A stretch of DNA of 64,000 nucleotides from Actinophytocola xanthii (GTDB taxonomy: Bacteria; Actinomycetota; Actinomycetes; Mycobacteriales; Pseudonocardiaceae), in NCBI RefSeq assembly GCF_001921205.1, contig NZ_MSIE01000050.1, positions 1 to 64,000 on the forward strand, in the 5' to 3' direction. Below the pieces are notes generated by a model. That model did not search any database and was not told where the DNA came from. It was given only the letters and a program-made list of their open reading frames with translations. Numbering within the stretch: position 1 is the stretch's first letter; each line of letters opens with the position of its first letter. A program made the translations under genes and the position numbers. Of this stretch, positions 1-34,235 are shown in pieces.

Positions 1-7692
<7,692 letters not shown>

Positions 7693-14209: not shown

Positions 14210-14270
14210 TCGTTCCTCCCTCTTCCCTACGGCACAACGGATCGGATGCAGCGCGGTGGAGAGTTTCCTT

Positions 14271-15614
14271 GTGCAGTCGGCGTTCAACGACTACCTCGGT
14301 CCGCCGGGTCCCGCGCCCGAGCTGGCCGCGCTGCGGGAGGCCCTGGACGCGACGAAGGCCGTCCGGACCCGCGACGACATGTACTTCACCCCGCTGCCGG
14401 CACCACTTCTGCTCGATCGCGAGCAGAACGCCTATCTCCGGCACGCGAGTGAGCGGCTCGTCGCGCTGCTCACCACCGAACTGGGCACGTACGTGGCCGA
14501 CGAGGCGGAGCTGCTCGACGTACTGCGGATCGGCCCGGTGCTGCGGCCGTTCGTCCGGGAGGCCCTCGCGGCGGACGTGACGGTGGCGCGCTGCGACTTC
14601 CTCTGGTCCCGGGAGGGCTGGCGGGTGGTCGAGGTGAACATCGGCGGACCGGTGGGCGGCCTGGACGTTCGGGGGTACAACGACCTCGCGGCGAAGAACC
14701 CGCTCGTCGGACCGTTCCTGACCGAGAACGGGCTCGACGCCGGGTCGCCCATCGACGCGCTGGCGGAGGCGACCCGCCGAGCCTGCGAGCGGCTGGGTGT
14801 CGCCGCGGCCCGGCCGGTGATCGCGATCGTGGACAGTCCGGAGTTCGAGCCGATCTACCACCTGGCTTACCGCAGGCTCGTGGAGCACTACGCGGCCAAC
14901 GGGTTCGACGCGGTCATCTGCCACCAGGGCACGCTCTCGGTCCGGAATGGACATCTGTTCTCGGGTGAGCTCCACATCGACGCCGTCCACCGCCAGTTCA
15001 TCCTCGAGGACATGCTGACCGAACCCGAGCTCGCCCTGCCGGTGCTCCAGGCCGCCTCGGCCGGCACGACCGCCCTCATCTCGGGCTTCCGCGAGGAGCT
15101 GCTGGGGTGCAAGGGAATGCTGGCGGTGCTCCGCGACGCGGCGGTACGAGGTCTGCTGTCCGCCGAGGACGCCCACCTGGTCCTCGACGTCGTCCCGGAG
15201 ACCGTTCTGCTGCACCGGCCGGACCGCGCGGGCTTCTCCGGCGCCGGCGACCCGCAGGTCCTGCGGGACGCCACCGCGGCCGACTGGGTGGTCAAACCGT
15301 CCATCGGCAGCTCCGGTGGCGGGGTCACCCTCGGCGCCGGTGTGGACGAGGGGACGTTCCGCGACGCGGCGAGGGCCGCGACCGGCTCCGACGACGCCTG
15401 GGTCGCCCAGCGGTTCGTCCGTAGCGACCCGGTGACCCTGCCGCTCCTGCGCGACGAGGAGCTCACGTTCGGCGGGTGCCAGATCCATCCCAGCTTCTTC
15501 GTGACCGAGGGAAGGGCGACCGGCGCGTGGACGCGCGCCCTCCCGGGGCAGGCGGCGCGGCTCGTGGCGATGGTGAACGGGGCGCTCTTCGGCGGCGTCT
15601 ACGCGCCGCACTAG
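14271..15614 (+). CDS. Circularly permuted ATP-grasp ligase-like protein
   Basis: 447 aa. The acidic metal/ATP loop comes early (FLWSREGWRVVEVNIGGPVGG) and the lysine-glycine ATP loop late (DWVVKPSIGSSGGGVTLGAG, then WVAQRFV). This is the order seen in circularly permuted ATP-grasp proteins related to the glutathionylspermidine-synthase fold. These enzymes form amide or peptide bonds through acyl phosphates. GTG 14271 follows GGTGGAGAG; an in-frame ATG 96 bp upstream lies inside the divergent P450 gene. It is transcribed away from the P450 and converges on the second ATP-grasp gene, their stop codons sharing the same four bases. The substrates are unknown. Confidence 0.7.
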   Translation: MQSAFNDYLGPPGPAPELAALREALDATKAVRTRDDMYFTPLPAPLLLDREQNAYLRHASERLVALLTTELGTYVADEAELLDVLRIGPVLRPFVREALAADVTVARCDFLWSREGWRVVEVNIGGPVGGLDVRGYNDLAAKNPLVGPFLTENGLDAGSPIDALAEATRRACERLGVAAARPVIAIVDSPEFEPIYHLAYRRLVEHYAANGFDAVICHQGTLSVRNGHLFSGELHIDAVHRQFILEDMLTEPELALPVLQAASAGTTALISGFREELLGCKGMLAVLRDAAVRGLLSAEDAHLVLDVVPETVLLHRPDRAGFSGAGDPQVLRDATAADWVVKPSIGSSGGGVTLGAGVDEGTFRDAARAATGSDDAWVAQRFVRSDPVTLPLLRDEELTFGGCQIHPSFFVTEGRATGAWTRALPGQAARLVAMVNGALFGGVYAPH

Positions 15615-16825
15615 TGGCTCCCGTCGGTGGTCGCCACCGCCAGGTGGTTCGTCATCTCCGTCACCCGGGCGAGGGCGTCGGACAGCGCGGGAGCGCGGGC
15701 GACCACGAACGCGACATGGTCCATGTTGTCGCGCGGCTCCCGCAGGCGAGTGCCGACGGTCGCGGCCAGGCGCACCTCGACAGCTCCGTCGACGGCGGCG
15801 GCCTGTTCGATCCCGCGCAGACCGGTGAGCGTGCCCTCCTTGCCGCAGAGGAAACGCATCGCCTCGTGGTGTGTCCATTCGAGACTCACCGACGGGGTGG
15901 CACCCAGCGCCATGTCCAGTGCCGCCAGGTAGGGGTTGAACCCGGAGCAGTGCCAGATCATGTCCATGATCACGTCGCCCGGCGTCCTGGCGTTGATCTC
16001 CACCACCTTCGGGCCGCTCTCGGTGATGATCAGCTCGGTGTTCGAGAAGCACCGGTCGACGCCGAGCGCCGCGAGCCCGGTGCGCACCGCCGCCTCCGCC
16101 GCCTCGGCGTGGGCGTGCTGGTAGGGCAGCGCGTGACCGTTCACGATCGGGGACTCGCCCGCCACAACCTCCTTGCGGACCTGGCAGAGCACGGTCGTCT
16201 CGCCGTCACAGGTCAGCGCCTCGACGCTGATCTCCTGGCCGCGGACCTGCTCCTCCACCAGCAGCGGCGCGTTCGCACGCAGCCGGCTGTGCCACGCCCG
16301 CCGCGTGATCTCGCCCAGCTCCTCGGCGGACCCGGCCAGGCCGACCCCGATACTGCCCGCCTGGTCGACCGGTTTGACGCACACCGGGAAACCAAGCTCC
16401 TCGACGGCCGCGCGCACCTCGTCCAGCTCGTGGCAGATCCGGAACCTCGGCTGGGGAACCCCTGCCTCGGCCAGCACGGTCCGCTGGACGCTCTTGACGG
16501 TCGCGGCCCGGGCCGCGTCCGCGGACATGAACGGGATGCCGAACTCGGCCGCGAGGGTGGCGGTCAGGACCATGCACTCGTCGAAGAACGTCATCACCGC
16601 GTCCGGCCGGTCCGCGCCGAGCACGTCGGCGACCGCCGAGCGCACCTGCCGCTCGTCGAACAGGTCCCCGACACCCCGGTACCGGTCGGCGAGGCGCAGG
16701 TGCGGCGCGTCGACGAAGTCCACGAGCAACAGCCGCACCCCGGCACGCAGCAGGGTGCGGATCGCGAACTCGCGGTTCTCGACGATGCCGATGACGAGAA
16801 CCGTCCGGCCCTCGGTAGAGCTCAC
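15611..16825 (-). CDS. ATP-grasp carboxylate-amine ligase
   Basis: 404 aa. N-terminal Rossmann-like part (TVLVIGIVENREFAIRTLLRAG), central ATP-grasp core (VKSVQRTVLAEAGVP, FPVCVKPVDQAGSIGVG, LLVEEQVRGQEISVE) and the metal-binding KVVEINARTPGD. It resembles L-amino-acid/dipeptide ligases and PurK-like enzymes: a carboxylate is phosphorylated by ATP and then captured by an amine. GTG 16825 has AAGGAGAAG upstream and overlaps the amidohydrolase stop (ATGTGA). It is the last gene of the long operon starting at 34235, so it probably joins a unit made by the upstream enzymes to another amino acid. Confidence 0.85.
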   Translation of the reverse strand: MSSTEGRTVLVIGIVENREFAIRTLLRAGVRLLLVDFVDAPHLRLADRYRGVGDLFDERQVRSAVADVLGADRPDAVMTFFDECMVLTATLAAEFGIPFMSADAARAATVKSVQRTVLAEAGVPQPRFRICHELDEVRAAVEELGFPVCVKPVDQAGSIGVGLAGSAEELGEITRRAWHSRLRANAPLLVEEQVRGQEISVEALTCDGETTVLCQVRKEVVAGESPIVNGHALPYQHAHAEAAEAAVRTGLAALGVDRCFSNTELIITESGPKVVEINARTPGDVIMDMIWHCSGFNPYLAALDMALGATPSVSLEWTHHEAMRFLCGKEGTLTGLRGIEQAAAVDGAVEVRLAATVGTRLREPRDNMDHVAFVVARAPALSDALARVTEMTNHLAVATTDGSH

Positions 16826-17919
16826 ATCTTCTCCTTCGGGGTGTGCCGCGCGCCGCCGCGCAGCACCTCGGTCACCTGGACGCGGCCGTCCACCAGCTCG
16901 AACACCGTGATGTCGGCCGGGGTGCCCACCGCCCACGGCTCCTGCCACCACGGTCTGCCGAGGATCCGCGCACAGGTCGTGGTCACCGCTGCCACGGCCC
17001 GGCCCAGCGGCATCCCCAGCGCGAGGAACTCCGACACCAGGCCGGGCAGGTCCGGGACGACCGCGCCGTCGTCCGGGCGGTAGGCGTCGGTGCTGATGGT
17101 GTCCGGCCAGAGCCCGGCGTCGGCGGCACGCCGCGCCACGTCGGTGCTGAACAGGGTGCCGGCGTGGCCCACGTCGAACAGCACGCCCCGGTCCCGCGCG
17201 TCCGCCACCCAGGGGTGGAGGCGCCCGGCGGCGGTGAGGATGCCCGCCGGCCCGCCGTGGAAGGCGTGCGTCACCACGTCGCCGGGGCGGAGCAGGTCGT
17301 ACACGTCGGGCATCGGCGCGGGAGGGTCGGTGATGTGTGCCATCACCGGCAGCCCGGTCGCGGCGGCCGCCTCGATCGCTCGGCGCAGGATCTCCAGTGG
17401 CGGAGCCGGGACGCTCGAGGTCAGCCGCACCTTGATCCCGACGATCTCGCCCGGATGCTCCTCGGCGCACTTCACCGTGCGCTCGACGTCCGCGTAGCGC
17501 AGGTCGGACAGTTCGCCCACGCCCGCGGCCAGCGGCTGCAACCCGATTCCGCAGATGTGCAGGAACGCCAGCACCCTCGTCCTGGACCGTCTCATCTCCA
17601 GCTCGCGGAACGCCGGGAAGTTCGCCCAGCCGGTGGAGCCCGCGTCCACGACGGTGGTGACGCCGACGTCGACGCCGACCCGGTCCGGCTCGATCGCGAT
17701 CGGGAAGCCGTGGGCGAAGTAGTGGCCGTGGATGTCGGTGAACCCCGGCGACACGTACGCCCCGCGCGCGTCGACCACTCGCGCGCCTCCCGGGTCGATG
17801 TCGGTGCCGACCGCCGCGATCCGCCCCGCCAGGATCGCCACGTCACCGGGGACGACCGTGTCCGCATGCGGGTCGATCACGCGTCCGTTGACCAGGACGG
17901 AGTCGTAGGTCGGGGTCAC
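16822..17919 (-). CDS. Metal-dependent amidohydrolase
   Basis: 365 aa, amidohydrolase superfamily (dihydroorotase/deacetylase-like branch). Metal ligands visible: DIHGHYFAHG (HxH), the lysine in EIVGIKVRL that is usually carboxylated, LPVMAHITDPP, DVGHAG and ISTDAYRPD. The N-terminal strand YDSVLVNGRVIDPHADTVVPGDVAI is the usual beta-sandwich half. It would hydrolyse a cyclic or linear amide, such as a cyclic ureide, lactam or N-acyl group. GTG start, overlapping the tautomerase stop by 4 nt; its own stop overlaps the ATP-grasp start. Its place directly before a ligase suggests removal of a group before or after ligation. Confidence 0.85.
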   Translation of the reverse strand: MTPTYDSVLVNGRVIDPHADTVVPGDVAILAGRIAAVGTDIDPGGARVVDARGAYVSPGFTDIHGHYFAHGFPIAIEPDRVGVDVGVTTVVDAGSTGWANFPAFRELEMRRSRTRVLAFLHICGIGLQPLAAGVGELSDLRYADVERTVKCAEEHPGEIVGIKVRLTSSVPAPPLEILRRAIEAAAATGLPVMAHITDPPAPMPDVYDLLRPGDVVTHAFHGGPAGILTAAGRLHPWVADARDRGVLFDVGHAGTLFSTDVARRAADAGLWPDTISTDAYRPDDGAVVPDLPGLVSEFLALGMPLGRAVAAVTTTCARILGRPWWQEPWAVGTPADITVFELVDGRVQVTEVLRGGARHTPKEKM

Positions 17920-18311
17920 GGCTGCCGCTCCCCCGCCACGAGCTGGGCGACGCCGTCGCCGAAGGACCAGTCGCAGAGCTGGTTCTCGGTGATCGTGACC
18001 AGCACGTTGCGCGGCTCGATCCCGGCGCGCTCGGCGGCCAGCTCGGTGATCCGCCGGTACAGCGCGCGCTTCTGCTCCACCGTCCGACCCGCCCGCATCG
18101 TGATGGCCACGAACACGACGTCGTCGTCCCGCTCGATCCCGAGGTAGCCGGGGTGGTAGCGCAGGTGTCCCGGATCGTGTTGGTGCAGCACCTGGAACAG
18201 GTCGTCGGCCGGCACGTCGATCGTCTCCGTCATGGCCTGGTGCACGGCGTCCCCCAGGGCGGTGAGGTCACGCCCGGGCCGCCGCAGCGCGTGGATCTGA
18301 ACTAGGGGCAC
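17916..18311 (-). CDS. Tautomerase-superfamily protein (cis-CaaD/MSAD-like)
   Basis: 131 aa. After the initiator the protein begins with Pro (MPLVQIHALRRPGR), the catalytic Pro-1 of the tautomerase superfamily. The length and the second beta-alpha-beta unit (VVFVAITMRAGRTVEQKRALYRRITELAAER) place it with the fused 4-oxalocrotonate tautomerase / malonate semialdehyde decarboxylase-like group. It may isomerise an enol/keto or dehydro-amino-acid intermediate. GTG start 4 bp after the cupin stop. Confidence 0.75.
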   Translation of the reverse strand: MPLVQIHALRRPGRDLTALGDAVHQAMTETIDVPADDLFQVLHQHDPGHLRYHPGYLGIERDDDVVFVAITMRAGRTVEQKRALYRRITELAAERAGIEPRNVLVTITENQLCDWSFGDGVAQLVAGERQP

Positions 18312-18315
18312 GGGG

Positions 18316-20394
18316 TCACCCGGCGACCGGACGGGTGGCGGCCTCGCGCACCACCAACAGCGTGCAGCCGTGCTCGGAGCTGACCCGGTGCACGCTGTGG
18401 GGTTCCTCCACGACCAGGTCGCCGACCCCGTAGCGGTCGCCGTTGTCGTTGCACAGCTCGCCGTCGAGCACGAACATCAGCTCGTAGTCGAGATGTTCGT
18501 GCAGGTCCCCGTGGGCTCCCGGGCCGAACCGCACGAGGAAGGCGGTGGCCTCGGTCTGCTCCACCCGGTAGAGGCGGTGGATGTCCACGCCGGCCCGTCC
18601 CGGCTCGACCCACCGCTGCCAGGGCACGGCGTCCCGGCCCGCGCCCGTCAACAGGTCCTTCCACACCGCGACACTGCGCTGCTGAACGTCCATCTGGCTT
18701 CTCCTCGGTCGCTCGAACGATCGGGTTTCGGTACTGGGTCCCGCGCTGGTCCCGGCGACGATCTCCGCCCGGAGGTCCGCCCGGCGGACCTTGCCGGAGG
18801 CGGTACGCGGCAGGCGCCGGCGGAGGTCGACCGACCGGACCCGCAGCTCTCCGGCGACCCGGGCCGCGACGTGGTCGAGGAGCTCGCGCTCCAGCTCGGG
18901 CCCGCCGGCCTCGGGCTCGACCGGCTCGACGACGGCGTGTGGGACCGCGCCGCCGACGGGATGCGGGCGGGGCACGACGGCCGCGTCGGCCACCGCGGGA
19001 TGACCGCGCAGCACCGCTTCCAGCTCGTAGGGCGAGATCCGGTGGTCGAACGACTTGAACACCTCGTCACGCCGACCGTGGATCCGCAGCCACCCGTCCG
19101 CGCTTCGCTCGCCGAGGTCGCCGGTTCCGTACCACCCGTCCGGTCCCGCCGACGGCGCGTCGGAGCCCAGGTAGCCGTGCATCACGCCGACCGGCGCCGG
19201 GTCGAGGTCGACCCCCACCTCGCCCTCGTCGCCACGCTCGCCGCTGCCGGGGTCGCGCAGCGAGATCCGGTACCCCGGCAGCGCCTTGCCGAGCCAGCCC
19301 GGGCGGGACGGCAGGCCGGGGGTGGTGCCGACGAGGCCGGTCGTCTCCGTCTGCCCGTACCCGTCGCGGACCCGAACCCCCCAGGCGCGACGCACGACCG
19401 CCGCGGTGTGCGCGTCCAGCGGCTCACCCGCGCTCAGCGCCTCGCGCAGCCCGGGGCGGTGCGCGGGCACCGCCGGGAGCATCGCCCGCCACACGCTCGG
19501 CGGCGCGCAGAACGTGGTCACCCGGTGCCGGTCCAGGAGGCCGGGCAGCCGGGTCGCCGCCACCTCCCGCGCGGGCAACGCCACCACTGTCGCCTCGGCG
19601 TTCCACGGCGCGAACAGGCTGCTCCACGAGTGCTTCGCCCAGCCGGGGGCGGCGACGTTCAGGTGCCGGTCCCCGGGCAGCAGCCCGGCCCAGTACATGC
19701 CCGAGAGGTGACCGACCGGGTAGCTGAGGTGGGTGTGCGCGACGAGCTTGGGCGCCGTGGTGGTCCCCGAGGTGAAGTAGCAGAACGCGACCGCGTCGCC
19801 GGAAGTGGGCTCGGTGGGGACGAACCGGCCGCCCGCGCGTTCCCCGTCGAGCAGGTCGTGCCAGCCCGGCGGCGACGCTCCCAGCGTGGTCCGCGTGCGG
19901 ACGTGGGCGCCGCCGGCGAAGTGCGGGACGAGCCGCGGCTCGCACACCACGTGGCACACCTCGCCACGGTCCAGCCGGTCGGCGGCCTCCGTGGCGGTGA
20001 GCGTGGTGTAGGTGGGTATCACGACGACACCGGCCTTGAGACAGGCGAGCAGCGTCACCCACAGCTGCGACCGCTGGTCGAGTGCCACCAACATCCGTTC
20101 CCCGCGGCGGACCCCGAGCTCGCCGAACCAGTGCGCGACCGCGTCCGAACGCCGCGCCAGGGCCGCGAAGCTCACCTCGGTCTCCCCGCCGGCCGCGTCC
20201 AGCAGCACCAACGCCGGCGCGTCGTTGCCGTCGGCCACGACGTCGAACCAGTCGAGCGCCCAGTTGAAGTACCGTGGGCGAGGCCACCGGAACAGCTCGC
20301 AGGCCCGGTCGTGGTCCTCCCGCAGCTCGATGAGCAGGTCCCGGGCCGCTCGGAACTCCTCGTGCGCGGGGGTGCGGCCGCCTCCACCGCTCAT
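18316..20394 (-). CDS. Acyl-AMP/CoA ligase fused to a C-terminal cupin
   Basis: 692 aa in one frame. Residues ~1-540 are an ANL enzyme of the benzoate/medium-chain acyl-CoA synthetase type: YFTSGTTTAPKLVAHTH (A3), DGYGQTETTG (A5), GWYGTGDLGE (A7), GRRDEVFKSFDHRISPYELE (A8) and PRTASGKVRR with the catalytic Lys (A10). A linker rich in Ser, Arg and Thr leads to a cupin (~568-692: GPGAHGDLHEHLDYELMFVLDGELCND, VEEPHSVHRVSSEHG) with a His-rich metal site. Inside the linker an ATG (18693) follows GAGGAG by 7 nt, so the cupin can also be made alone (125 aa). It activates a carboxylic acid; whether the acceptor is CoA, a carrier or an amine is unknown. ATGA overlap with the upstream gene. Confidence 0.88.
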   Translation of the reverse strand: MSGGGGRTPAHEEFRAARDLLIELREDHDRACELFRWPRPRYFNWALDWFDVVADGNDAPALVLLDAAGGETEVSFAALARRSDAVAHWFGELGVRRGERMLVALDQRSQLWVTLLACLKAGVVVIPTYTTLTATEAADRLDRGEVCHVVCEPRLVPHFAGGAHVRTRTTLGASPPGWHDLLDGERAGGRFVPTEPTSGDAVAFCYFTSGTTTAPKLVAHTHLSYPVGHLSGMYWAGLLPGDRHLNVAAPGWAKHSWSSLFAPWNAEATVVALPAREVAATRLPGLLDRHRVTTFCAPPSVWRAMLPAVPAHRPGLREALSAGEPLDAHTAAVVRRAWGVRVRDGYGQTETTGLVGTTPGLPSRPGWLGKALPGYRISLRDPGSGERGDEGEVGVDLDPAPVGVMHGYLGSDAPSAGPDGWYGTGDLGERSADGWLRIHGRRDEVFKSFDHRISPYELEAVLRGHPAVADAAVVPRPHPVGGAVPHAVVEPVEPEAGGPELERELLDHVAARVAGELRVRSVDLRRRLPRTASGKVRRADLRAEIVAGTSAGPSTETRSFERPRRSQMDVQQRSVAVWKDLLTGAGRDAVPWQRWVEPGRAGVDIHRLYRVEQTEATAFLVRFGPGAHGDLHEHLDYELMFVLDGELCNDNGDRYGVGDLVVEEPHSVHRVSSEHGCTLLVVREAATRPVAG
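18701..18706 (-). promoter_or_regulatory. Internal ribosome binding site before the cupin
   Basis: GAGGAG on the minus strand sits 7 nt before ATG 18693 inside the ligase-cupin fusion. It suggests that a free cupin is co-produced, or that the fusion arose by loss of a stop codon between two genes. Confidence 0.5.
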
Positions 20395-22337
20395 CGGGCC
20401 TCACCGGCGCCGGCCGGGGTCTGGTGCCGCGTGCCGGACGCCACACCGGACAGGACGTCCTCCGCGATCGCGTCGGCATCCCTGGTGAACGCGGTCCACC
20501 GTCCCGGTCTTCCGCTGCCGACCTGGGTGAACCAGCGCGTGTGCTCGGTGGGGATGCCCAGTACGTAGATCCCCGGGTCGGCCTGTCCGTCGGTCCCGAC
20601 GGGGTGGTACGGCGCCTGGGTGACCGCGGCGCCGCCGGTGTCGAAGGCCGTGCCGCCGTCGGTGTTCACGAAGCTCGTCAGCAGACCCCTCGCGTGCAGC
20701 CGCCGCGTCAGCTCGGCGGTGTCGCGCCACAGGCACTGCTGGGGGATCCGGGCGTCGAGCACGCCGTCGAGCAGGACCCTGCTGCCGCCGACCCTGGGCG
20801 ACCAGGCCGCGAACCGGCCGGCCGCCGGGTCGGTGCCGAAGCGGACCGACGGTCCGAGGACGCGCAGCACGCCGCACTCGATCAGCGCCCTGACCTGGCG
20901 CAGCCGCACCAGCGGCGGTCCGGCGGCGAGGAACGAGGCGAGCGGGGTGAACCACTCCACCAGGTCGAACCGGTGCGAGGCGGGGGTCAGCCCGGCGAAG
21001 TCCACCGCCTCGCGCAGGACCTGCCGGGTGTCGCGGAGCACGTCGCAGGCCGCCTTGCGCGGGCCGTCGACGGTCCCCGCCTCGGCGTCGCGGAGGTCGG
21101 CGTCGATGAGGTCCAGCAGCTCGGCGTGGAACAGCTCGGGGTCGGCGAACCAGCGGCCCTCGAGCGGTCGGCTCCACTCGTGGAGGTCGAGCTCGGGCAG
21201 GTCGTCGACGCCGAACGCGGCCGCCAGTCGTGCCGTCGTGTCCCGTGCCGGCCCGTCGCCGGCGGCGGCCACCGCCTGCTCGGTGAACCGTTCGGCGACC
21301 TCGGCTCCGAACCGCAGGCGCAGCGCGGTGGCGTAGTACACCAGCCGCATCTCCGTCTCCAGGAGCCCGATCAGGTCCGCCCGCAGGTCGATCCGGCCCG
21401 CCCGGCGCAACTCACGGACCCGGTCGGTGGTGAACACCCTCGGCGTGTACGTGTGCGTCGCCGTCTTCTGGTTGCGGCCGCGCGCCAGGATGGGCACGCC
21501 AGCGCGCGAGCCGGCCACGAGCACGGGCTCCTCCCCGCTCGGCACGAACCGCAGCCTGCCCTCGCCCGCCGGCTCGAACCGCCCCCCGCGCCCGATCGTG
21601 AGCGCCACCATCACGTCGTAGAACGAGAGCCCGAGACCGACGACGCCGACCGTCTCCCCCGGCTGGATCTCCCCCAGCGGCATGTCCGACGCCGAGTCCC
21701 CGCGGAGGTAGCGCAGCCCCGGTCTGGTCGCGGCGAAATCGGCCAGGCGTTGTTGCTCGGTGTCCAGGCGGGGCCTCGGGTGGCCGGTGGCCAGCAGCAC
21801 CCGGTCGGCCCGCACCCGGGTGCCGCCCGCCGTCGCGAGCAGGTACCCGTCGTGGTCCGGGACCAGGTCCACCACCTCGGTGCGCAGCCGGTGCAACGCC
21901 ACCGACGCCGGCAGGCCCGCCTCCACGGTGTCGAGGACGAACCTCAGGTAGCGGCCGTAGAGGGCCCGGGGCGCGTACCCGTCGGGGCCCGGGCAGTCGG
22001 GGTCCACGCTCGCCCACCACTGCGCCAGCGTCGGTCCGTGGCCCGGCCGCGCCCGCCGGCCGTCCGCCGGCCCGGAGAACATGGTGACCTCGCCGGCCAC
22101 CGTGTTCATCATGAACCAGGACGGCTGGTCGGTGCGCCAGATCCGGCCGCAGCCGACCTCGACGGCGTCGAGGACGTGGAGCTCGACCGGTCGGGCGGGT
22201 GGCCGCGCCGCCAACCGCGCGGCGAGCCGCTCCAGGACCGCGATCCCCCGCGGTCCGCTGCCCACGACCGCCACCCGGTACGGGTCGGCGTCGCCGCGCG
22301 CCCCGACCTCCTCCGGTGCGGGCCCCTCGTCGATCAT
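20391..22337 (-). CDS. FAD/NAD(P)-binding protein (NAD_binding_9-type)
   Basis: 648 aa. The N-terminal dinucleotide motif YRVAVVGSGPRGIAVLERLAAR is followed by a second nucleotide-binding element (GETVGVVGLGLSFYDVMVALTIGRGG). It belongs to the large actinobacterial group of FAD/NAD(P)-binding proteins that recall lysine/ornithine N-hydroxylases but are mostly uncharacterised. The C-terminal 250 residues are helical and then close with HPVGTDGQADPGIYVLGIPTEHTRW. The start is ATG 22337, with ATGA overlap to the preceding gene and the same at its end. Its position between PLP/FMN enzymes and the acyl ligase suggests oxidation or N-hydroxylation of the amino acid intermediate. Confidence 0.8.
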   Translation of the reverse strand: MIDEGPAPEEVGARGDADPYRVAVVGSGPRGIAVLERLAARLAARPPARPVELHVLDAVEVGCGRIWRTDQPSWFMMNTVAGEVTMFSGPADGRRARPGHGPTLAQWWASVDPDCPGPDGYAPRALYGRYLRFVLDTVEAGLPASVALHRLRTEVVDLVPDHDGYLLATAGGTRVRADRVLLATGHPRPRLDTEQQRLADFAATRPGLRYLRGDSASDMPLGEIQPGETVGVVGLGLSFYDVMVALTIGRGGRFEPAGEGRLRFVPSGEEPVLVAGSRAGVPILARGRNQKTATHTYTPRVFTTDRVRELRRAGRIDLRADLIGLLETEMRLVYYATALRLRFGAEVAERFTEQAVAAAGDGPARDTTARLAAAFGVDDLPELDLHEWSRPLEGRWFADPELFHAELLDLIDADLRDAEAGTVDGPRKAACDVLRDTRQVLREAVDFAGLTPASHRFDLVEWFTPLASFLAAGPPLVRLRQVRALIECGVLRVLGPSVRFGTDPAAGRFAAWSPRVGGSRVLLDGVLDARIPQQCLWRDTAELTRRLHARGLLTSFVNTDGGTAFDTGGAAVTQAPYHPVGTDGQADPGIYVLGIPTEHTRWFTQVGSGRPGRWTAFTRDADAIAEDVLSGVASGTRHQTPAGAGEAR

Positions 22338-25194: not shown

Positions 25195-25236
25195 GGTCGT
25201 CCTTTCCGCCGGCGCGGCTCGCACCGGGACGCTCAG

Positions 25237-26352: not shown

Positions 26353-26380
26353 GTCGTTCTCCCCTGGCAGGTGTTGGCTG

Positions 26381-27358: not shown

Positions 27359-27368
27359 CGGTACCCCC

Positions 27369-28382
27369 TCACCCGTGCTCGCGGCGCACGTCGCCGAGGA
27401 AGTCGGGGATCGGGACGGCTCCGCCGGAGGCGATCGCCTCGTCGAGGACGTGACCGGCAACGGCGACGTCGAGCACGCCGAGGCCGAACGGGGACACGAC
27501 GACCGGTCGCGTGTGGTCGGGTGCCGGCCGGCCGGCCAGCAGCTGCCCGATGGTGGCGGAGACGAACGCGCGGGAGCCGCTGAGCTGTTCGGCGAGGTGC
27601 GGGGAGGTGTCTGCCCGAAGGCAGTGGTCCACGTCGTCGACCACGTTGTGGGCGTCGAGCAGGAGCTCGGGCGCCAGGTCCCGCAGGGAGATGTTGAGCA
27701 CCACCTGACCGGGTCGCAGCACCGTCTCGGTCCCGATGTGCGGCGCCAGCGCGCTGGTCGCGAGCACGACGAGGTCCGCGGCGAGGGCCTCGGCCTTGGC
27801 AACCGCCCGGGCGGGGACACCGGCGGCGCGCGCGGCATGGCGCGCGAACGCCGCCGAGCTCGCCGCGTCCAGGTCGTGGCAGACGACCTCGGTGACCGGG
27901 ACGGGGGTCCGGAGCACGTGGTCCAGGACGGACGCCGCGATCGGTCCACTCCCGACGAACCCGACCGTGCCCCCGGTGAGCCGGTCGCCGAGGACCAGGC
28001 GCGCGGCGACCGCGGCCGCCGCGCCGGTCCGCGCCGCGCTGATCCGCGCGCCCTCCAGGCAGGCGACCGGGCGACCCGTCTCGTGGTCGTTGAGCACGAT
28101 CACCGCCGAGGCGCGGTGTTCCCCCCGCGCCACGTTGTCCGGGAAGCTGGAGATCCACTTCATCCCGACCCGGCGCGCGTTCCCCTCCTTCAGGTGCGCG
28201 GACAGGGCGATCACCCGCGCGTTCGGGCGGTCCGGGAAGCGCAGGAACGCGCTGGGCGCGATCGTGGCCTCGCCGTTCTCGTGCGCGAGGTAGGCATCCG
28301 CGACCGCGGACATCACCTGCTGGTGTGAGCGGGCGAGCACGTCGGCGACCACCGGGCCGGGCACCACGTGGAACTCCGTCAT
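27369..28382 (-). CDS. sbnB: SbnB-like N-(aminocarboxyethyl)glutamate dehydrogenase (diaminopropionate synthesis)
   Basis: 337 aa, ornithine cyclodeaminase/mu-crystallin fold. NAD-binding GTVGFVGSGPIAASVLDHVL, with family segments AFLRFPDRPNARVIALSAHL, GMKWISSFPDN and EGARISAARTGAAAAVA. In staphyloferrin B synthesis SbnB oxidatively cleaves the SbnA product to L-2,3-diaminopropionate, 2-oxoglutarate and ammonia. It starts in an ATGA overlap with the sbnA-like gene directly upstream, the classic pairing, which makes the assignment strong. Confidence 0.9.
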   Translation of the reverse strand: MTEFHVVPGPVVADVLARSHQQVMSAVADAYLAHENGEATIAPSAFLRFPDRPNARVIALSAHLKEGNARRVGMKWISSFPDNVARGEHRASAVIVLNDHETGRPVACLEGARISAARTGAAAAVAARLVLGDRLTGGTVGFVGSGPIAASVLDHVLRTPVPVTEVVCHDLDAASSAAFARHAARAAGVPARAVAKAEALAADLVVLATSALAPHIGTETVLRPGQVVLNISLRDLAPELLLDAHNVVDDVDHCLRADTSPHLAEQLSGSRAFVSATIGQLLAGRPAPDHTRPVVVSPFGLGVLDVAVAGHVLDEAIASGGAVPIPDFLGDVRREHG

Positions 28383-29368
28383 CCGGTCCGCTCCTCACGC
28401 GTGGCCGCGGCGCCGCCGGACAGCTCCAGGTCGCGGGCGGCGATCCAGTCGTCGCTGTACACCGTGTCGAGGTAGCGGTCGCCGAGGTCGGGGCTGATGG
28501 CCACCACCGTCGCTCCGCGCCTGAAGGTCGCCCGCAGCCGTCGCACCGCGCAGAGCACGCTGCCGGTCGAGCCGCCGACGAGGACGCCGTGCCGGGCCGC
28601 GACCTCCCGGCACACCGCGACGGTCTCCTTCTCGGACACCACGCAGGTCTCGTAGCCGCCGCCGGTCGGCACGATCTCCGGCACGCGGCTCGTGCCGAGC
28701 CCGGGGATGTGCCGTGGACCAGGCGGGCCGCCGAAGGTGACCGAGCCCTCGACGTCCACACCGATGACCCGCGTGCTCGGGCTGCGCTCGCGGAAGTACT
28801 CGACGCAGCCGGTGAGCGTGCCCGTCGTGCCCGCTCCCACCGCGAGCACGTCGACGTGCCCGAACTCCTTGTGGACGCTGTGTGCGGTCTGCCGACGGTG
28901 GGCGTCCGGGTTGGCCGGGTTGGCGTACTGGTTGAGCCAGACGAGCCCGGGGTCCCTGGCCAGTGCGCGCCGGATGTAGTCGATGCGGCCGTGCAGGAAA
29001 CCGCCGTTCGCGTCCTCGTCCCTGATGATGACCAGCTCGGCGCCGAGACCGCGCATCGTGGCGACAGCGGCCGTGGTGGCCCGGATGTCGGTCACGATGG
29101 TGAGCGCGTACCCCCTCGTGGCGCAGACGACCGCCATCGCGATGCCGAGGTTTCCCGAGGAGGACTCGATGATCCGCGACCCCGGTGACAGCCGCCCGTC
29201 GCGCTCGGCGGCCGCGACCATCGACTGCGCGGTCTTGAGCTTGAGCGAGCCGGCGACGTTGAACGCCTCGATCTTGAGGTACAGGTCGACGTCCCGACGG
29301 TCGAGGAACCCGGGCAGGGTGAGGAACACGTCGTCGATGACGATGTCGGCGGCCGAGGAGTAGATCAT
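28379..29368 (-). CDS. sbnA: SbnA-like N-(aminocarboxyethyl)glutamate synthase (diaminopropionate synthesis)
   Basis: 329 aa, cysteine-synthase-like fold type II PLP enzyme. The Schiff-base Lys is K43 in FNVAGSLKLKTA, the carboxylate loop is ESSSGNLGIAMA and the phosphate-binding glycine loop is VGAGTTGTLTG. SbnA condenses O-phospho-L-serine with L-glutamate by beta-replacement; SbnB then releases L-2,3-diaminopropionate. It is shorter than typical CysK and lacks CysK's NPGGSIKDR, matching the diaminopropionate subgroup. ATG 29368 is preceded by GAGGGG and overlaps the stop of the LanB-like gene (ATGA). Confidence 0.92.
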   Translation of the reverse strand: MIYSSAADIVIDDVFLTLPGFLDRRDVDLYLKIEAFNVAGSLKLKTAQSMVAAAERDGRLSPGSRIIESSSGNLGIAMAVVCATRGYALTIVTDIRATTAAVATMRGLGAELVIIRDEDANGGFLHGRIDYIRRALARDPGLVWLNQYANPANPDAHRRQTAHSVHKEFGHVDVLAVGAGTTGTLTGCVEYFRERSPSTRVIGVDVEGSVTFGGPPGPRHIPGLGTSRVPEIVPTGGGYETCVVSEKETVAVCREVAARHGVLVGGSTGSVLCAVRRLRATFRRGATVVAISPDLGDRYLDTVYSDDWIAARDLELSGGAAATREERTG

Positions 29369-31797
29369 CCGTCCGTCCCCTCGCCGCCGGCCGGTCTCGC
29401 CCGGCCCCGGTCGCGCCACAGCTGGACGCGGATCTCCGCGGTCAGCCTGCCGGTGGGCGTGGTCAGCCAGAGCTGGTCGGGTGTCGGCAGCGCCTCGGTG
29501 AGGACGACCCCCTGGGCGGCGGCGAGGCAGCGGGAGAAGTTGCGCACCGAGGTCACGGACGCGAGGTCCAGGTACATCGGCTTCTCCTCGGTGTCGACGG
29601 TGAAGTAGAGCCGTCGCGGCAGCCCGAGCCGGTGTCGCCACCTCGTGATCGCCAGCCACTCCTTGGCCGTCGGCTGGTTGCCGCGCGGCGCGGGGACGTC
29701 CGAGCGGGTGAGGACCCAGCGGCGGCGTTGCACGACCACCCCGTCCAGGACGATGCGCGGGGTGTGCGTCCCGGTGGCCAGCCGGGGCAGCTCCAGGGCC
29801 GGCAGGGCGCAGTTCATCAGGCCGCCGACCGCGACGTAGGTGTCCTCGTACTCGGGCAGCAGCCACAGGTCGCGGTCGTCGCCGGGGTCGTGCAGACCGA
29901 CGAAGCCGTTGGGCCACCGGCGCACCTCGAGCCGGTCCACGGCGACCGTCCGGGTGCCCGGCACGGGGATCGTCGTGTCCAGGCAGAGCACCCGGTGGCC
30001 GCAGGGTGAGGAGTCGGTGCCCTTCTGGTCGCGGCGGATCTGCTGGAGCGTCGGCACCGCGGGTGCGAGCTCCCGCGCGACGACGTCCCACAGTTCCTCG
30101 ACGCCGAGCTGGCCGTCGTCGTAGAGCGCGCGGATCTGGCAGGCCGTGGTCGGCCAGATGTGGTGCAGCTCGCTGAGGATGACCTGCGCGGGGTCGTCCG
30201 GCGCACCGCCGGCCAGCATCAGGTCGGCCGCGCCGAACAGCGGCCAGGCATGCAGGTCGTCGCGAATCAGACCGGCCGCGACCAGGTCGGAGCGGGTGAG
30301 CTCGACGACGGGCTGGGCGGGGTCGACGAGGTCGGCGAACCGGCGCATCGAGCGCTCGACCGTCCCGGCCCCGTCGCGCGGCATCCCCCGGACCTCGGTC
30401 GCCGGCAGGGTGTCGACGCCCCGGTCACGCAACGCCCTGGTGAGCACCTCCTGCCCGGCGAGACGCTCCTCGATCGCGACGGAGGCGAGGAAGTCCATGA
30501 CCGTCGAGAGGCGTTCGCCCAGCCGCTCGGCGCCCGCCCGCGTGGCCGCCGCCCCGAGCACGTTGTCCTGGGCGTCGTCGTAGAAGACGGCACGGTCGCC
30601 CATCAGCACACCGCCCCGCCGCCAGGGGGCGTGGTTGGTGAGCTCGGTGAACCGCGAGGCGATGTCGCCGACGAGCGCGGGCCTGCCCGCCTGGTCGGTC
30701 TCGGGGTAGGCGGCGATCCGGCGGAGCAGCTCCGTGGCCAGCGCCGCCCGTGGGGTGTCCAGCCGGCGCACCAGGTCGGCCAGGGCCGATCCCGCGTCGA
30801 CGGTGAAGTCGGGGATGTACCAGTCGTCCAGGACGAGCCCGAGGGCGGTGAGCCGCGCCAGGCTCGCCTCGACGACGTCGCGGGGCAACCCGAGCGCGGC
30901 GGCCAACGAGGCCCGGTCGGCCGCGGTGTCCAGCCGGGCGAGCACCCGCGCGTCCAGTTCGGACAGCCCCGCGACCGCCGCCGGCGGCGCGGCGATGACC
31001 CGCCGCGGCGTCCGGTGCGCCGCGCCCGCCGGCAGGTCCTCGAGCAGGGCGTTGCCGACCGCGCTCGCCGCCCAGTACGCCATGAACGTGCGCCGCCGGG
31101 CCGCGCGGCCGTCACCGGCCGCGGTGTAGGACACCGGCCCCAGGACGGCGTCCCGGTGGATGCTGCCTTCCGTGACCTGGTCGCCGTCGAAGGTGAACAG
31201 GTTGAGCGGGCCGGTGTACCCACCGGTCTCGTTCTTGCCGCAGAACCGTTGCAGGTACCGGTAGGCGAGCAGCTCCCGCCCGCGCCGGAACCTCTTGTGC
31301 TCGGCGGACCAGCACATCTCCGGGTAGGCGTTCGGACTGCTCAGCAGTACCGCCTCGGTGAAGTAGTCCTCGCCGACGTGCTCGACGAGCAGCCGGACCT
31401 CCCGCGCCGACGACTCGTACAGGGCGACCGCGAGGCTGTCGGTGGCGGCCGAGATGGCACCGAACGCCTCACGCCACGAGGCCAGCAGCGGTCGGGCGTC
31501 GTCGTCGAACTGCTCGTCCGGGACATCGTGGTAGCGCGACACGCGGTTCACCGCCCAGCGCAGGCGCTCGTCGTCGCTGTGCGCGGCGAGCGCCCGCAGG
31601 CCTCGGACGACCTCCCATCGGGTCTCGTACAACCGGCCGCGGGCCTCGAGCGCTCGATCCGTCAGGTCGTCCAGGGCCGGCTCGGCCAGTGCCTCGAGCC
31701 AGTCGAAGGGCAGCCCGGCCGAACGCAGGAACCCGGTTCGGAACACCTGCCAGCCCTGCCCACCCGTCGCGTGCCGTTCGTCGGGAGCCACCGGCAT
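29365..31797 (-). CDS. Lantibiotic dehydratase (LanB) N-domain protein, PEARL-like
   Basis: 810 aa. It matches the tRNA-dependent glutamylation region of class I lanthipeptide dehydratases: an N-terminal strand-helix start (FRTGFLRSAGLPFDWLEAL), the RFCGKNETGGYTGPLNLFTF region that replaces the usual KTSPFSTFT loop, and a C-terminal YFTVDTEEKPMYLDLASV typical of the family. No elimination (SpaB C-terminal) domain is attached or nearby. Stand-alone proteins of this kind include PEARLs, which attach an amino acid from aminoacyl-tRNA to the C-terminus of a carrier peptide. No lanthionine cyclase or obvious lantibiotic precursor lies nearby. Its coupling to SbnA and the aminotransferase suggests it acts on the diaminopropionate/arginine-derived unit. 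Confidence 0.85.
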   Translation of the reverse strand: MPVAPDERHATGGQGWQVFRTGFLRSAGLPFDWLEALAEPALDDLTDRALEARGRLYETRWEVVRGLRALAAHSDDERLRWAVNRVSRYHDVPDEQFDDDARPLLASWREAFGAISAATDSLAVALYESSAREVRLLVEHVGEDYFTEAVLLSSPNAYPEMCWSAEHKRFRRGRELLAYRYLQRFCGKNETGGYTGPLNLFTFDGDQVTEGSIHRDAVLGPVSYTAAGDGRAARRRTFMAYWAASAVGNALLEDLPAGAAHRTPRRVIAAPPAAVAGLSELDARVLARLDTAADRASLAAALGLPRDVVEASLARLTALGLVLDDWYIPDFTVDAGSALADLVRRLDTPRAALATELLRRIAAYPETDQAGRPALVGDIASRFTELTNHAPWRRGGVLMGDRAVFYDDAQDNVLGAAATRAGAERLGERLSTVMDFLASVAIEERLAGQEVLTRALRDRGVDTLPATEVRGMPRDGAGTVERSMRRFADLVDPAQPVVELTRSDLVAAGLIRDDLHAWPLFGAADLMLAGGAPDDPAQVILSELHHIWPTTACQIRALYDDGQLGVEELWDVVARELAPAVPTLQQIRRDQKGTDSSPCGHRVLCLDTTIPVPGTRTVAVDRLEVRRWPNGFVGLHDPGDDRDLWLLPEYEDTYVAVGGLMNCALPALELPRLATGTHTPRIVLDGVVVQRRRWVLTRSDVPAPRGNQPTAKEWLAITRWRHRLGLPRRLYFTVDTEEKPMYLDLASVTSVRNFSRCLAAAQGVVLTEALPTPDQLWLTTPTGRLTAEIRVQLWRDRGRARPAGGEGTDG

Positions 31798-33266
31798 CAG
31801 ACCTCCCCACTCGTGCCGGCCGGCTCCGAGAGCCCGGCCGGCACCCGGTCGTGCCGCCCGCTGGCGCCTCCGGTGAGCTCGTCACAGGCGGCGGCCAGCC
31901 GCTCGAGCCCACGTACCCACTGCGGTTCGGGGAGCGCGAAGGACAGGCGCGTGTAGTAGCCGCGGCGTCGCCACCAGCCGGGGTCGTGCCCGAACGCCGG
32001 TCCGGGGAGGGTCTGCAGACCGAACCGACGGAAGAGGGTGTGCGTGGTCTCCAGGTAGTCGCGGCCGTCGAGGGCGGGCACCCGGACCAGGGTGTTGAAG
32101 TCGCCGCGCCAGCGGGGGAACCACCCGACGAGGTCACCGAAGTCGCGGCGCAGGACGGCCTCGTTGGTGGCGAGCACGTCACGCAACGCGGTGCGCCACG
32201 CGCCGACCGACGCCGTGACCCCGGTCGAGCGCACCTCGTCCACGATCCGCGCGGCGAAGTCCACCAGCCCCGGGAACGTCCTGGCGTGCGGGGTGAGCAG
32301 GGCGAGCAGGGTGTCGCGGGCCGAGAAGCCCCCGTCCTCGAGCCGCTCGGCGTCGATCATCGCGAGCCGGTCGAGCACGAGCGCGGGCGACGCCAGGCCG
32401 GGCGAGGACGGCGCGATGAGCTCGTTCACCCGCGCCGCCGCCCTGATGGTGGCCGTGTCGCCGATGAGCCAGGCCACGCGAAAGCCGGGCAACGCACGGG
32501 ACTTGGACAGGCTGCCGACGGTGAGCACGCCCTCGGCGTACCGTTCCTCGGCGGCGATCGACGGCAGGTGCGGCAGGTCCCCGTCGCGGGCGAGGTCCGA
32601 GGAGACGATGTCGTGCAGGATCACCACGTCGTGGTCCCGCGCCCAGGCGACCAGCCGCCGCAGCTCGTCGTCCGGGTAGAACTCCCCGGTCGGGTTGTTG
32701 AACGTGTTGACGTACAACACCGTCGTGTCCTGGCCGGCTCCGGCGGTGAGCTCGTCGACGGTCGGCAGCCAGCGCCGCGGCAGAGCGGAAGTCACCTCGG
32801 TGAGCTCGAAACCGGAGTCGCGCAACGCCGCACCGACGAGCGGGAACGTCGGTGCCGGTAGCACGGCGTGCGGCCGGCGCCCGCGCGCCTGTCCGGCCGC
32901 GGCCAGCGTGCGGGCCGCCAGCCCGACCGCGGCGCTCGCCCCCGCCGTCACGATCACGTTCTCCGGACCCGGCCGGGTCCGGCCGCCGCTGCGGGCCGCC
33001 TCGTAGGTCGCCACCGCGGCGCGGGCCAGCAGGTGTCCGTCGGGTCCGTCGTAGTCGTGCCACAGCATGGGGTTGCGGGCGGCGGAGAGCACGAAGTCGA
33101 CGAAGTCCCACGGCGGGTCGGTGAAGTTGACACCCGAGGCGAGGTTGACGATCGGCGTGCCCGGGTGGCGGGACAGGAAGTCCGCCTGCTCGTCGAGGTC
33201 GTAGTTCACCTCGTCGACGGTCAGCATGAACCGCCACGGGGCGAACTCCGGGACACAGCTCGACAT
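31797..33266 (-). CDS. Class I/II PLP aminotransferase-fold enzyme
   Basis: 489 aa. Fold type I: VIVTAGASAAVGLAARTLA (PLP phosphate region), LYVNTFNNPTGEFYPD (Asn-Pro), VVILHDIVSSDL (Asp) and VGSLSKSRALPGFRVAW with the Schiff-base Lys. Immediately behind a VioC-type arginine hydroxylase homologue, such enzymes can be capreomycidine synthase-like (VioD/OrfR) cyclases instead of transaminases. The protein is longer than VioD and could equally be an ordinary aminotransferase. The start is taken as ATG 33266, directly abutting the hydroxylase stop; ATG 33227 is an alternative, and neither has a strong ribosome site. One-base overlap (TGATG) with the LanB-like gene. Confidence 0.75.
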   Translation of the reverse strand: MSSCVPEFAPWRFMLTVDEVNYDLDEQADFLSRHPGTPIVNLASGVNFTDPPWDFVDFVLSAARNPMLWHDYDGPDGHLLARAAVATYEAARSGGRTRPGPENVIVTAGASAAVGLAARTLAAAGQARGRRPHAVLPAPTFPLVGAALRDSGFELTEVTSALPRRWLPTVDELTAGAGQDTTVLYVNTFNNPTGEFYPDDELRRLVAWARDHDVVILHDIVSSDLARDGDLPHLPSIAAEERYAEGVLTVGSLSKSRALPGFRVAWLIGDTATIRAAARVNELIAPSSPGLASPALVLDRLAMIDAERLEDGGFSARDTLLALLTPHARTFPGLVDFAARIVDEVRSTGVTASVGAWRTALRDVLATNEAVLRRDFGDLVGWFPRWRGDFNTLVRVPALDGRDYLETTHTLFRRFGLQTLPGPAFGHDPGWWRRRGYYTRLSFALPEPQWVRGLERLAAACDELTGGASGRHDRVPAGLSEPAGTSGEV

Positions 33267-34235
33267 TCAGATGATCCGGGAGCCGTGCCGGTGCAACCGG
33301 GCGATCGACGAGCAGACCATCGTGCGCAGCAGCCACCGGTCGTGCCCGTCGTAGGCCGCGCGGAACGGCGTGCGGGCGTGGACGACGCGACGGTTGTCCA
33401 GCATGATGAGATCTCCCGGCTCCAGCACGTGGCCGGCCTTCGCCTCGTCGAGCGCCTCCTTGAGCTCGGCGAGCGCCTCTTTCGCCTCGTCGTCGCCGTC
33501 GACGGGGCGCAGGTAGTGGTCGTCGTAGCAGATCTCCAGCGCGTGGTCGGGTCCGAACAGCACCGGCGTGACCGACTTCGTGACCGACGGCGAGACGTGC
33601 GCGGAGTCCGCGTGCATCTCGAACCGCGGCTCGGCGAGCACGCGCCGGACCTCCGCCGGGAGCCGCAGGTCGCGGGCCGCGGCATAGCGGGTCACCGCGT
33701 TCTCGGCCCCCCGCAGGCACAGCAGTCCGAAGTAGTCGCACCGGTCGGGGCTGAACCCGTCCTCGACGTGCCAGTCGAGGGTTCCGCTGCTGCTCTCGCT
33801 GGTCTGGGTGTTCTCCATCCGGGGCACCGGAACGACGTGCTGCACGACCTGACCGTCATAGAGGCTGCGGAAGTTGAACGGTTCGCCGAGCAGCAGCGCG
33901 ACCGCGAGCAGGATCATGGCGCCACGCTGCGCCTGCTCGGTGTCCAGGGGTGCGCCGGACGCCATGGGGTTCGGTCCGAACTCAACGGACGGCAGGAGAC
34001 CTCGCAGCAACAGCACGTCGCTGTGCGCGCTCCGTACCCGGTACTCGTGGACGCGGCGATGCACCTCGGCCGGGAGCTCCGCCACGAGCGGTACCGCCGC
34101 GGAGACGAGCTGGTCGGCGGACGCTCGCGAGAAGTCCGTCGAGCCGAGACGGTCACCGGCCGCGCGCCAGAGATCTGCCGCGTCCACCGACGAGAGTTCG
34201 ACACACTGAAAAGGATGAGAAACAGTCAACGCCAT
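33267..34235 (-). CDS. Fe(II)/2-oxoglutarate hydroxylase, VioC/AsnO-like
   Basis: 322 aa. Clavaminate-synthase/AsnO/VioC-type dioxygenase: DWHVEDGF gives His156 and Glu158, and DNRRVVHARTPF gives the distal His286, followed by RWLLR for 2-oxoglutarate. The HxE form of the facial triad and the DNRRVVH motif are typical of the free-amino-acid beta-hydroxylases acting on Arg or Asn. VioC 3-hydroxylates L-arginine before cyclisation to capreomycidine, so an arginine-derived substrate is plausible here. ATG 34235 follows CAGGAG; the first codons are unusually GC-poor, consistent with efficient initiation. It is the first gene of the long minus-strand operon. Confidence 0.87.
   Translation of the reverse strand: MALTVSHPFQCVELSSVDAADLWRAAGDRLGSTDFSRASADQLVSAAVPLVAELPAEVHRRVHEYRVRSAHSDVLLLRGLLPSVEFGPNPMASGAPLDTEQAQRGAMILLAVALLLGEPFNFRSLYDGQVVQHVVPVPRMENTQTSESSSGTLDWHVEDGFSPDRCDYFGLLCLRGAENAVTRYAAARDLRLPAEVRRVLAEPRFEMHADSAHVSPSVTKSVTPVLFGPDHALEICYDDHYLRPVDGDDEAKEALAELKEALDEAKAGHVLEPGDLIMLDNRRVVHARTPFRAAYDGHDRWLLRTMVCSSIARLHRHGSRII

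Follow-up and report, generated by a model that had tools for sequence, protein, structure and literature searches.

Enzymes of the GntD/VioC/CmnC, GntC and GntA families carry out hydroxylation, cyclisation and N-hydroxylation of guanidino compounds, the SbnA/SbnB cassette makes 2,3-diaminopropionate (Dap), and in ketomemicin biosynthesis the amidine is accepted by an α-amine. Oxidation of an amino acid nitrogen is represented by CreE, FzmM and L-aspartate N-hydroxylase of the aspartate-nitrosuccinate (nitrite) pathway; the MetRS-cupin hydrazine synthetases PyrN and Spb40 are encoded next to N-oxygenases. Genes related to, or resembling, parts of these systems occur together in a gene cluster of Actinophytocola xanthii (family Pseudonocardiaceae), located in the first 64,000 nucleotides of contig NZ_MSIE01000050.1 (hereafter the window; genes are listed in Table 1). 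At the core of the cluster, 14 minus-strand genes follow one another between 15611 and about 34.2 kb. We consider the cluster to be apparently undescribed and propose, with a probability of about 0.5, that it makes a guanidino acid (module 1) and an N-oxidised 3-methylaspartate-type unit (module 2), which are joined by tRNA- or ATP-dependent ligases. We infer every substrate, the order of steps and the product of this pathway; the sequences argue best for a distinct clade of N-oxygenases with cupin, ligase and mutase partners, and least for the final product.

The flavin adenine dinucleotide (FAD) enzyme of the cluster is homologous over its full length to CreE, FzmM and L-aspartate N-hydroxylase and keeps their catalytic arginines and Asn62, but it belongs to a separate clade, has neither Asn413 nor Val/Ala571, and is partnered by cupin, ligase and B12 mutase genes instead of a lyase gene. 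Adjoining it, as in the case of PyrN and Spb40, is a gene for an adenylating domain fused to a cupin with the HxHxxxE motif and a later histidine. Here, however, an ANL (acyl-CoA ligase) type adenylating domain takes the place of the MetRS-like one, the cupin is C-terminal and of the Cupin_7 family, and the spacing to the last histidine differs from that in PyrN. The parallel is one of logic, in the combination of an N-hydroxylase with an adenylating domain and a cupin. Among the proteins of guanitoxin, L-enduracididine and capreomycidine biosynthesis (GntA, GntC, GntD, VioC, VioD, CmnC), the GntA model is passed and the dioxygenase and the pyridoxal phosphate (PLP) enzyme are related; the cluster adds Dap, amidinotransferase and LanB-like genes, and a guanitoxin pathway was rejected because the GntC and GntD models stay under their cut-offs (Table 1). 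With the ketomemicin genes ktmA–F the cluster shares the logic of an ATP-grasp protein and an amidinotransferase working without a nonribosomal peptide synthetase (NRPS). These are two of the six ktm types; no ktm-type aldolase, C-acyltransferase, dehydratase or dehydrogenase was seen in the cluster, which by these features is not of the ketomemicin kind. SbnA and SbnB both score above curated cut-offs, but their operon lacks NRPS and siderophore genes, and a sister cluster keeps SbnA only. An earlier note on this DNA was aware of no characterised pathway having such a gene set; targeted searches of the open-licence literature indeed gave no described match.

The flavin N-oxygenase clade and its partner genes

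The FAD protein aligns with L-aspartate N-hydroxylase 8cp2 over nearly the full length at about 40% identity. According to the published description (PMC10404684), aspartate in the entry chamber is held mainly by Arg13, Arg276, Arg416, Arg577 and Asn413, and the N413E mutant has lost aspartate hydroxylation. Matches to the FAD protein at 1e-90 were found in 31 of 394 genomes of the class, the window's own included; the resulting 36 rows comprise the window, one genome (G406) with the gene in two pieces, five places at 52–59% identity and 28 at 38–43%. A tblastn search of plasmids matched 115 records, and the four best among the six listed were inspected. The survey of gene neighbourhoods covered G406, all five places of the upper set, the 15 highest-scoring places among the 28 at 38–43% and the four plasmid loci, giving 10 window-like and 15 CreE-like loci, in which query genes were sought by tblastn in stretches of 14 to 30 kb.

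A tree was built from 26 rows, comprising the window protein, 8CP2 and sequences of 24 loci; the G406 locus L085, which is split between frames, was omitted. A branch with 100/100 support separates the ten window-like rows (nine loci plus the window) from the others. All 16 CreE-like rows have Asn413 and none of the ten window-like ones does, the window protein having Gln, and position 571 is Phe in all ten window-like rows and Val or Ala in all 16 others. Arg276 and Arg416, conserved in every CreE-like row, are retained in 4/10 and 9/10 window-like rows, respectively, whereas Arg13, Asn62, Arg266, Arg409, Arg412 and Arg577 are found in all 26. This pattern fits a clade of N-oxygenases with the catalytic core intact that would have lost the known mode of aspartate recognition. 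Since mutase genes are linked to the FAD gene, 3-methylaspartate or a derivative would be the natural candidate substrate. Homology alone annotates both branches alike, and positions 413 and 571 would help genome mining to separate this branch from nitrite-forming clusters. The genome of A. xanthii encodes a second FAD homologue (36% identity, G000:C112:221681-223558).

The two sets of loci also differ in their neighbours. A nitrosuccinate-lyase-like gene (Lyase_1, at least 56% identity) was found at 10/15 CreE-like and 0/10 window-like loci; the query came from one of these loci, L093, itself counted, and a 30% match at L102 was left uncounted. Conversely, a cupin occurs at 6/10 window-like loci, a mutase at 4/10 and a ligase at 45% identity or more at 4/10, and each of the three at 0/15 CreE-like loci. 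The genes for B12 subunit (55–57% identity to the window), mutase (54–55%), FAD protein (47–48%) and ligase (51–52%) follow one another in this order in Streptomyces xanthii and Streptomyces sp. NBC_01591. A stand-alone cupin gene comes after the FAD gene (55%) of NBC_01003; its product shares 56% identity with the cupin portion of the window fusion, and a mutase pair lies about 9 kb away. In S. angustmyceticus the FAD and ligase genes lie beside a TrpB-like gene, and a mutase was looked for there and none was found. In G406 the starts of cupin, B12 subunit, mutase, FAD (in two frames) and ligase (58%) genes follow in this order within about 4.5 kb. Overall, the mutase E chain is 49–55% identical to the mutases at four FAD loci (L081, L082, L083 and L085). 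In the stretches inspected, no amidinotransferase, LanB-like or GntA-type gene was seen beside the module 2 relatives; only distant (24–36%) SbnA-, ATP-grasp-, dioxygenase- and aminotransferase-like genes were. A further recurring set was noticed at L083, L088, L090 and L092, where window-like FAD genes occur with genes for an isochorismatase-fold hydrolase, an aminotransferase, LeuC/LeuD-like proteins and a TauD-type dioxygenase.

The cupin part of the window fusion is 35–60% identical to the cupins at six FAD loci, and the HxHxxxE motif with the later His, general for cupins, is conserved in all 7 sequences. The corresponding residues of the PyrN cupin are His50, His52, Glu56 and His90 (PMC8664883). 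Two reactions may be considered for the fusion. By analogy with PyrN, an O-to-N shift could lead to an N–N bond; on chemical grounds, the oxygen of a hydroxylamine or an oxime could attack the activated carboxyl group, giving an isoxazolidinone or isoxazolinone. The isoxazolinone ring is known in TAN-950 from a Streptomyces and in β-IA of pea (PMC9293202).

The probable guanidine and diaminopropionate module

The enzyme names in the earlier note hold at the family level in comparisons with Pfam, NCBIfam and StrB1 (1bwd), and the curated scores of SbnA and SbnB bear out its assignment of these two enzymes to Dap. Its inference of a guanidine from the amidinotransferase stands in so far as the protein is a genuine StrB1-like amidinotransferase; Dap would be a candidate acceptor of the amidine. 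Since the acceptor in ketomemicin-type systems is an α-amine, amidination of the Dap side chain is here taken as plausible only. Two roles are conceivable for the kinase, either provision of O-phosphoserine to SbnA or protection of the host.

The closest relative of module 1 is a 12-gene run (L060) in Plantactinospora endophytica NBRC 110450, of which 11 genes are related to those of the window: the regulator (43%), the GntA-type heme enzyme (67%), the VioC-like (61%), ATP-grasp (39%), aminotransferase (57%) and LanB-like (49%) proteins, the 14271 protein (36%), SbnA (68%), the kinase (60%), the amidinotransferase (81%) and, in two pieces at 37–39%, the major facilitator superfamily (MFS) transporter. 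The twelfth gene encodes a methyltransferase. The 60 kb around this run contain no relatives of SbnB, of the GltS-like, divergent PLP or FAD proteins, or of the ligase-cupin, tautomerase or amidohydrolase, and a search of the P. endophytica genome at 1e-3, which had no positive control in that genome, found no FAD homologue. SbnB-like genes lie on other contigs of this genome, and two of the three adjoin SbnA-like and NRPS genes. Actinophytocola algeriensis (NZ_JACHJQ010000010.1) has a partial set consisting of an amidinotransferase (58%), two VioC-like proteins (36 and 52%), a LanB-like protein (32%), an aminotransferase (52%) and an MFS transporter (38%), together with carbamoyltransferase and NRPS-like genes. 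A pattern scan of the species collection, based on an alignment of two aminotransferase sequences and a pair of short patterns and thus of limited reach, had 2 of 25 stretches confirmed.

A second amidinotransferase of A. xanthii is 63% identical to that of the cluster and, judged by its neighbours, looks like part of a ketomemicin-type cluster. At G000:C185:19449-25586 it is accompanied by genes identified by eye as a dehydratase, a PLP C-acyltransferase, an aldolase, a dehydrogenase and an ATP-grasp protein, a set that matches ktmA–F as listed in PMC11943689.

Of 390 genomes of the family, 92, the window's own among them, contain a match to the LanB-like protein, and the best match in another genome is 34% identical (A. 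algeriensis). The protein family to which it belongs uses aminoacyl-tRNA, and the ribosome-independent ligation suggested in the earlier note may or may not apply to it. The elimination domain PF14028 was not detected in the LanB-like protein, and a search of its genome was also empty, but the controls gave no signal anywhere. No convincing small open reading frame (ORF) for a precursor peptide was found in cluster gaps longer than 60 bases, and the only weak candidates lie at the cluster edges (11034–11309 on the plus strand and 37381–37605 on the minus strand). For the 14271 protein no PDB sequence match was obtained, and its ATP-grasp Pfam matches are sub-threshold (E 0.12 and 0.2). The LanB-like protein and the ATP-grasp protein encoded at 15611, perhaps with the 14271 protein, may join the units without an NRPS.

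Proposed pathway and competing explanations

In the proposed pathway SbnA and SbnB would form Dap, with the kinase perhaps supplying O-phosphoserine, and the amidinotransferase would amidinate an amine with arginine as the donor. The VioC-like and GntC/VioD-like enzymes would hydroxylate and probably cyclise the guanidino acid, and the GntA-type heme enzyme would N-hydroxylate a guanidine. The B12 mutase probably converts glutamate to 3-methylaspartate, the nitrogen of which would be oxidised by the CreE-superfamily flavoenzyme; the ligase-cupin would then activate a carboxylate and either close an isoxazolinone-like ring through an N–O bond or rearrange the product, forming an N–N bond by a PyrN-like O-to-N shift. 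Finally, the LanB-like protein, aminoacyl-tRNA dependent if it follows its family, and one or two ATP-grasp-type ligases would join the units for export by the MFS transporter. A more specific and distinctly speculative version is a pseudo-peptide of two unprecedented residues, a (possibly cyclic) N-hydroxyguanidino amino acid and a 3-methylaspartate heterocycle with an N–O or N–N bond made by the N-oxygenase and the ANL-ligase/cupin, the two being joined by the LanB-like protein, which would charge a free small molecule from aminoacyl-tRNA. If our proposal is true, a branch of flavin N-oxygenases no longer serves the nitrite pathway, the mutase, N-oxygenase, ligase and cupin make a short, testable gene set for new N-heteroatom chemistry, and the cluster would be a case for a LanB-like tRNA-dependent enzyme acting outside ribosomal peptides.

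Several observations weigh against this proposal. No other genome was seen with both modules, so their cooperation is argued from the interleaving of their genes in one operon. The mutase pair, encoded at 11255–13016 to the left of the 14 genes, lies outside the operon, beyond the 14271 gene, and the E chain scores 146 bits with TIGR01503, far under the cut-off of 390, for which reason it is filed as family-like and not as an equivalog. Acyl-CoA ligases that resemble the ligase domain are common, with matches at 1e-70 in 132 of 394 genomes and one further copy in its own genome. Because such close relatives are common, only the adjacency of the ligase gene is informative. In the stretches read, 6/10 window-like loci are without a mutase and 4/10 without a cupin match (L081, L082, L084 and L089), the last of these also being without a mutase or a close ligase. 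Four of the ten window-like FAD proteins retain Arg276, and a change of substrate would be our deduction from residues and neighbours. The Plantactinospora cluster has kept SbnA without SbnB. Finally, the GltS-like, divergent PLP, tautomerase and amidohydrolase queries matched nothing at the 25 FAD loci or in the Plantactinospora stretch, and hence these four genes, with that of the cytochrome P450, are placed in neither recurring set.

The occurrence of each module elsewhere without the other would also be expected of two independent neighbouring pathways with separate products that share an operon by chance. We regard this as a minor possibility, as the FAD and ligase-cupin genes lie in an interval bounded by two module 1 genes, those of the amidinotransferase and the ATP-grasp protein, and most neighbours there overlap by 4 bp, the exceptions being gaps of 42 bp and 4 bp. 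The opposite view, suggested in the earlier note, is that all 14 genes build and modify a single guanidino-Dap residue. It draws on SbnA, SbnB and the amidinotransferase being genuine and encoded close together, but it was not supported by the survey, in which the CreE-type N-oxygenase, the ligase, the cupin and the mutase pair recur apart from the amidinotransferase and the guanidine set; moreover, the amidine acceptor may be an α-amine. Hence, we find the single-residue explanation unlikely.

The membership of the FAD protein in the CreE superfamily and the adenylating enzyme that follows it might suggest a nitrite pathway feeding nitrogen to a diazo or nitroso group. This is highly improbable, and a nitrite-pathway cluster was set aside: neither the lyase nor Asn413 was found in any of the ten window-like loci or rows, respectively, and a whole-genome search with PF00206 (Lyase_1) gave five matches, all off the contig of the window. 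The LanB-like protein, in which no elimination domain was detected, could instead act on an overlooked small precursor in a PEARL-type pathway to a ribosomally synthesised and post-translationally modified peptide (RiPP). In favour of such a pathway is an ORF of 47 aa, containing SVAYAPS-like repeats, immediately beyond the Plantactinospora cluster; on the other hand, the search of gaps longer than 60 bases gave only the weak candidates at the edges named above, and A. algeriensis has NRPS-like genes near its LanB-like gene; we therefore hold this pathway, too, to be improbable. The repeat ORF, which lies together with a SagB-type nitroreductase gene named by eye (L060:19978-21326) downstream of the run, may belong to a separate RiPP.

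Gene organisation, remaining genes and flanking regions

Gene calling on the window, with a purpose-written caller using third-position GC (GC3) and a codon model, confirmed the tightly coupled, same-strand 14-gene operon of the earlier note independently. The 13 junctions range from −4 to +42 bp (neighbours overlap by 4 bp in seven cases and by 1 bp in one, abut in another, and are separated by gaps of 4, 10, 28 and 42 bp in the remaining four), and GC3 is 0.91–0.96 in all 14 genes. From the junction spacing we infer co-transcription. A promoter and terminator scan of 11000–30999 gave zero minus-strand sites, although such a scan says little for DNA of this kind. For the first gene the caller chose GTG 34187; the in-frame ATG at 34235, with GGAG nine bases upstream, is at least as good a start.

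Genes and spacing in the unit 15611–34235 are thus real, but the unit is not one pathway block, combining genes of two modules with unassigned genes, and it is too narrow: the homologous gene sets elsewhere point to a cluster of about 21 genes at 11255–37358. The guanidine module, by comparison with P. endophytica and A. algeriensis, extends beyond the 14 genes on both sides (14271–15614 and 34386–37358). As for the recurrence of the gene order, the module 1 set is found in Plantactinospora and the module 2 set in other actinomycetes, but in none of the other genomes seen do they occur together.

Table 1 Genes of the proposed cluster, with coordinates in the window
Feature	Coordinates	Strand	Evidence
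Methylaspartate-mutase E-chain family protein	11255..12451	-	PF06368 8e-75, 252 bits (cut-off 26.6)
B12-binding small subunit (MutS-like)	12510..13016	-	PF02310 4e-9, 36.9 bits (cut-off 32.1); DAHTWN stretch
Cytochrome P450	12983..14209	-	PF00067 9e-20; overlaps mutase pair; cluster membership by adjacency alone
Candidate divergent ATP-grasp ligase (14271 protein)	14271..15614	+	35–36% to gene within Plantactinospora cluster
ATP-grasp protein with L-amino-acid-ligase C-terminal domain (LAL_C2)	15611..16825	-	PF18603 3e-14; ATP-grasp_4 3e-11
Amidohydrolase/deacetylase-family metallohydrolase	16822..17919	-	NF006689 346 bits, below cut-off 371
Tautomerase (Tautomerase_2)	17916..18311	-	PF14552 3e-30
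ANL adenylate-forming ligase with fused C-terminal Cupin_7	18316..20394	-	PF00501 5e-55; PF12973 1e-13
FAD N-oxygenase, CreE/aspartate N-hydroxylase superfamily, separate clade	20391..22337	-	8cp2 8e-93; NAD_binding_9; tree, residues
Divergent CGS/CGL-like PLP enzyme	22334..23878	-	no Pfam match; NF005758 34 bits (cut-off 440)
Stand-alone GltS-like flavin mononucleotide (FMN) protein	23875..25194	-	PF01645 (Glu_synthase) 6e-42
Amidinotransferase	25237..26352	-	StrB1 1bwd 2e-90; no Pfam match
APH/homoserine-kinase-like kinase	26381..27358	-	PF01636 5e-17
SbnB-type Dap dehydrogenase	27369..28382	-	TIGR03944 338.6 (cut-off 326.9)
SbnA-type Dap synthase	28379..29368	-	TIGR03945 380.5 bits (cut-off 349.95)
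LanB-like protein, Lant_dehydr_N part only	29365..31797	-	PF04738 1e-10
PLP aminotransferase-fold enzyme, GntC/VioD-like	31797..33266	-	Aminotran_1_2; best NCBIfam match NF041364 (GntC) 112 bits (cut-off 415)
Fe/2OG dioxygenase, VioC/CmnC/GntD-like	33267..34235	-	TauD; NF041363 (GntD) 227 bits (cut-off 345); CmnC 7e-40
GntA-type heme N-hydroxylase, divergent from operon	34386..35123	+	NF041366 166.8 (cut-off 145)
MFS transporter	35065..36273	-	PF07690 9e-39; related MFS in both sister clusters
ParB-like/helix-turn-helix (HTH) regulator (named by eye)	36417..37358	-	no Pfam match; 43% to first gene of Plantactinospora cluster, which has HTH matches

Among the genes outside both recurring sets, that of the GltS-like protein has its best-scoring matches elsewhere at about 33–37% identity, and a pattern scan of genome contigs with this protein had 0 of 81 pattern matches confirmed. 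The divergent PLP protein contains the CGS-like stretch SLLKYRQQGLDRVNAG, which we take to resemble the lysine motif of the CGS family. In the class sample of 394 genomes, a search with this protein at 1e-20 matched none of the other 393, and the four plasmid records gave nothing at 1e-3 in a search that had no positive control. A match on a Pseudomonas amygdali plasmid was rejected because of its different gene context; the protein there (L059:8654-11212) is annotated as a PLP enzyme, and a part of it is 27% identical to that of the window.

The proposed cluster contains no NRPS gene. The NRPS genes from 37.7 kb onward were rejected as a part of it, the Plantactinospora run beginning at the regulator that corresponds to the one at 36417, and no relatives of these NRPS genes were found in the 60 kb read around that run. 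The host genome of 8.34 Mb is in 204 contigs. On the left, positions 1–7692 hold a large polyketide synthase (PKS) gene, open at the window edge, with two ketosynthase-acyltransferase (KS-AT) stretches in the scanned part (2001–7692). Within the right flank, ARAGORN called a tRNA-Arg at 52643–52732, inside a condensation-domain gene (52128–53462), and the call is perhaps false. The flank itself, from 37733 to 64000 and along the contig to 78667, is a separate NRPS/PKS region encoding small condensation (C), adenylation (A) and thiolation (T) proteins, an MbtH protein, a SARP-type regulator, two ABC transporters, a penicillin amidase, a ThiG-like protein, luciferase-like monooxygenases and a radical SAM protein.

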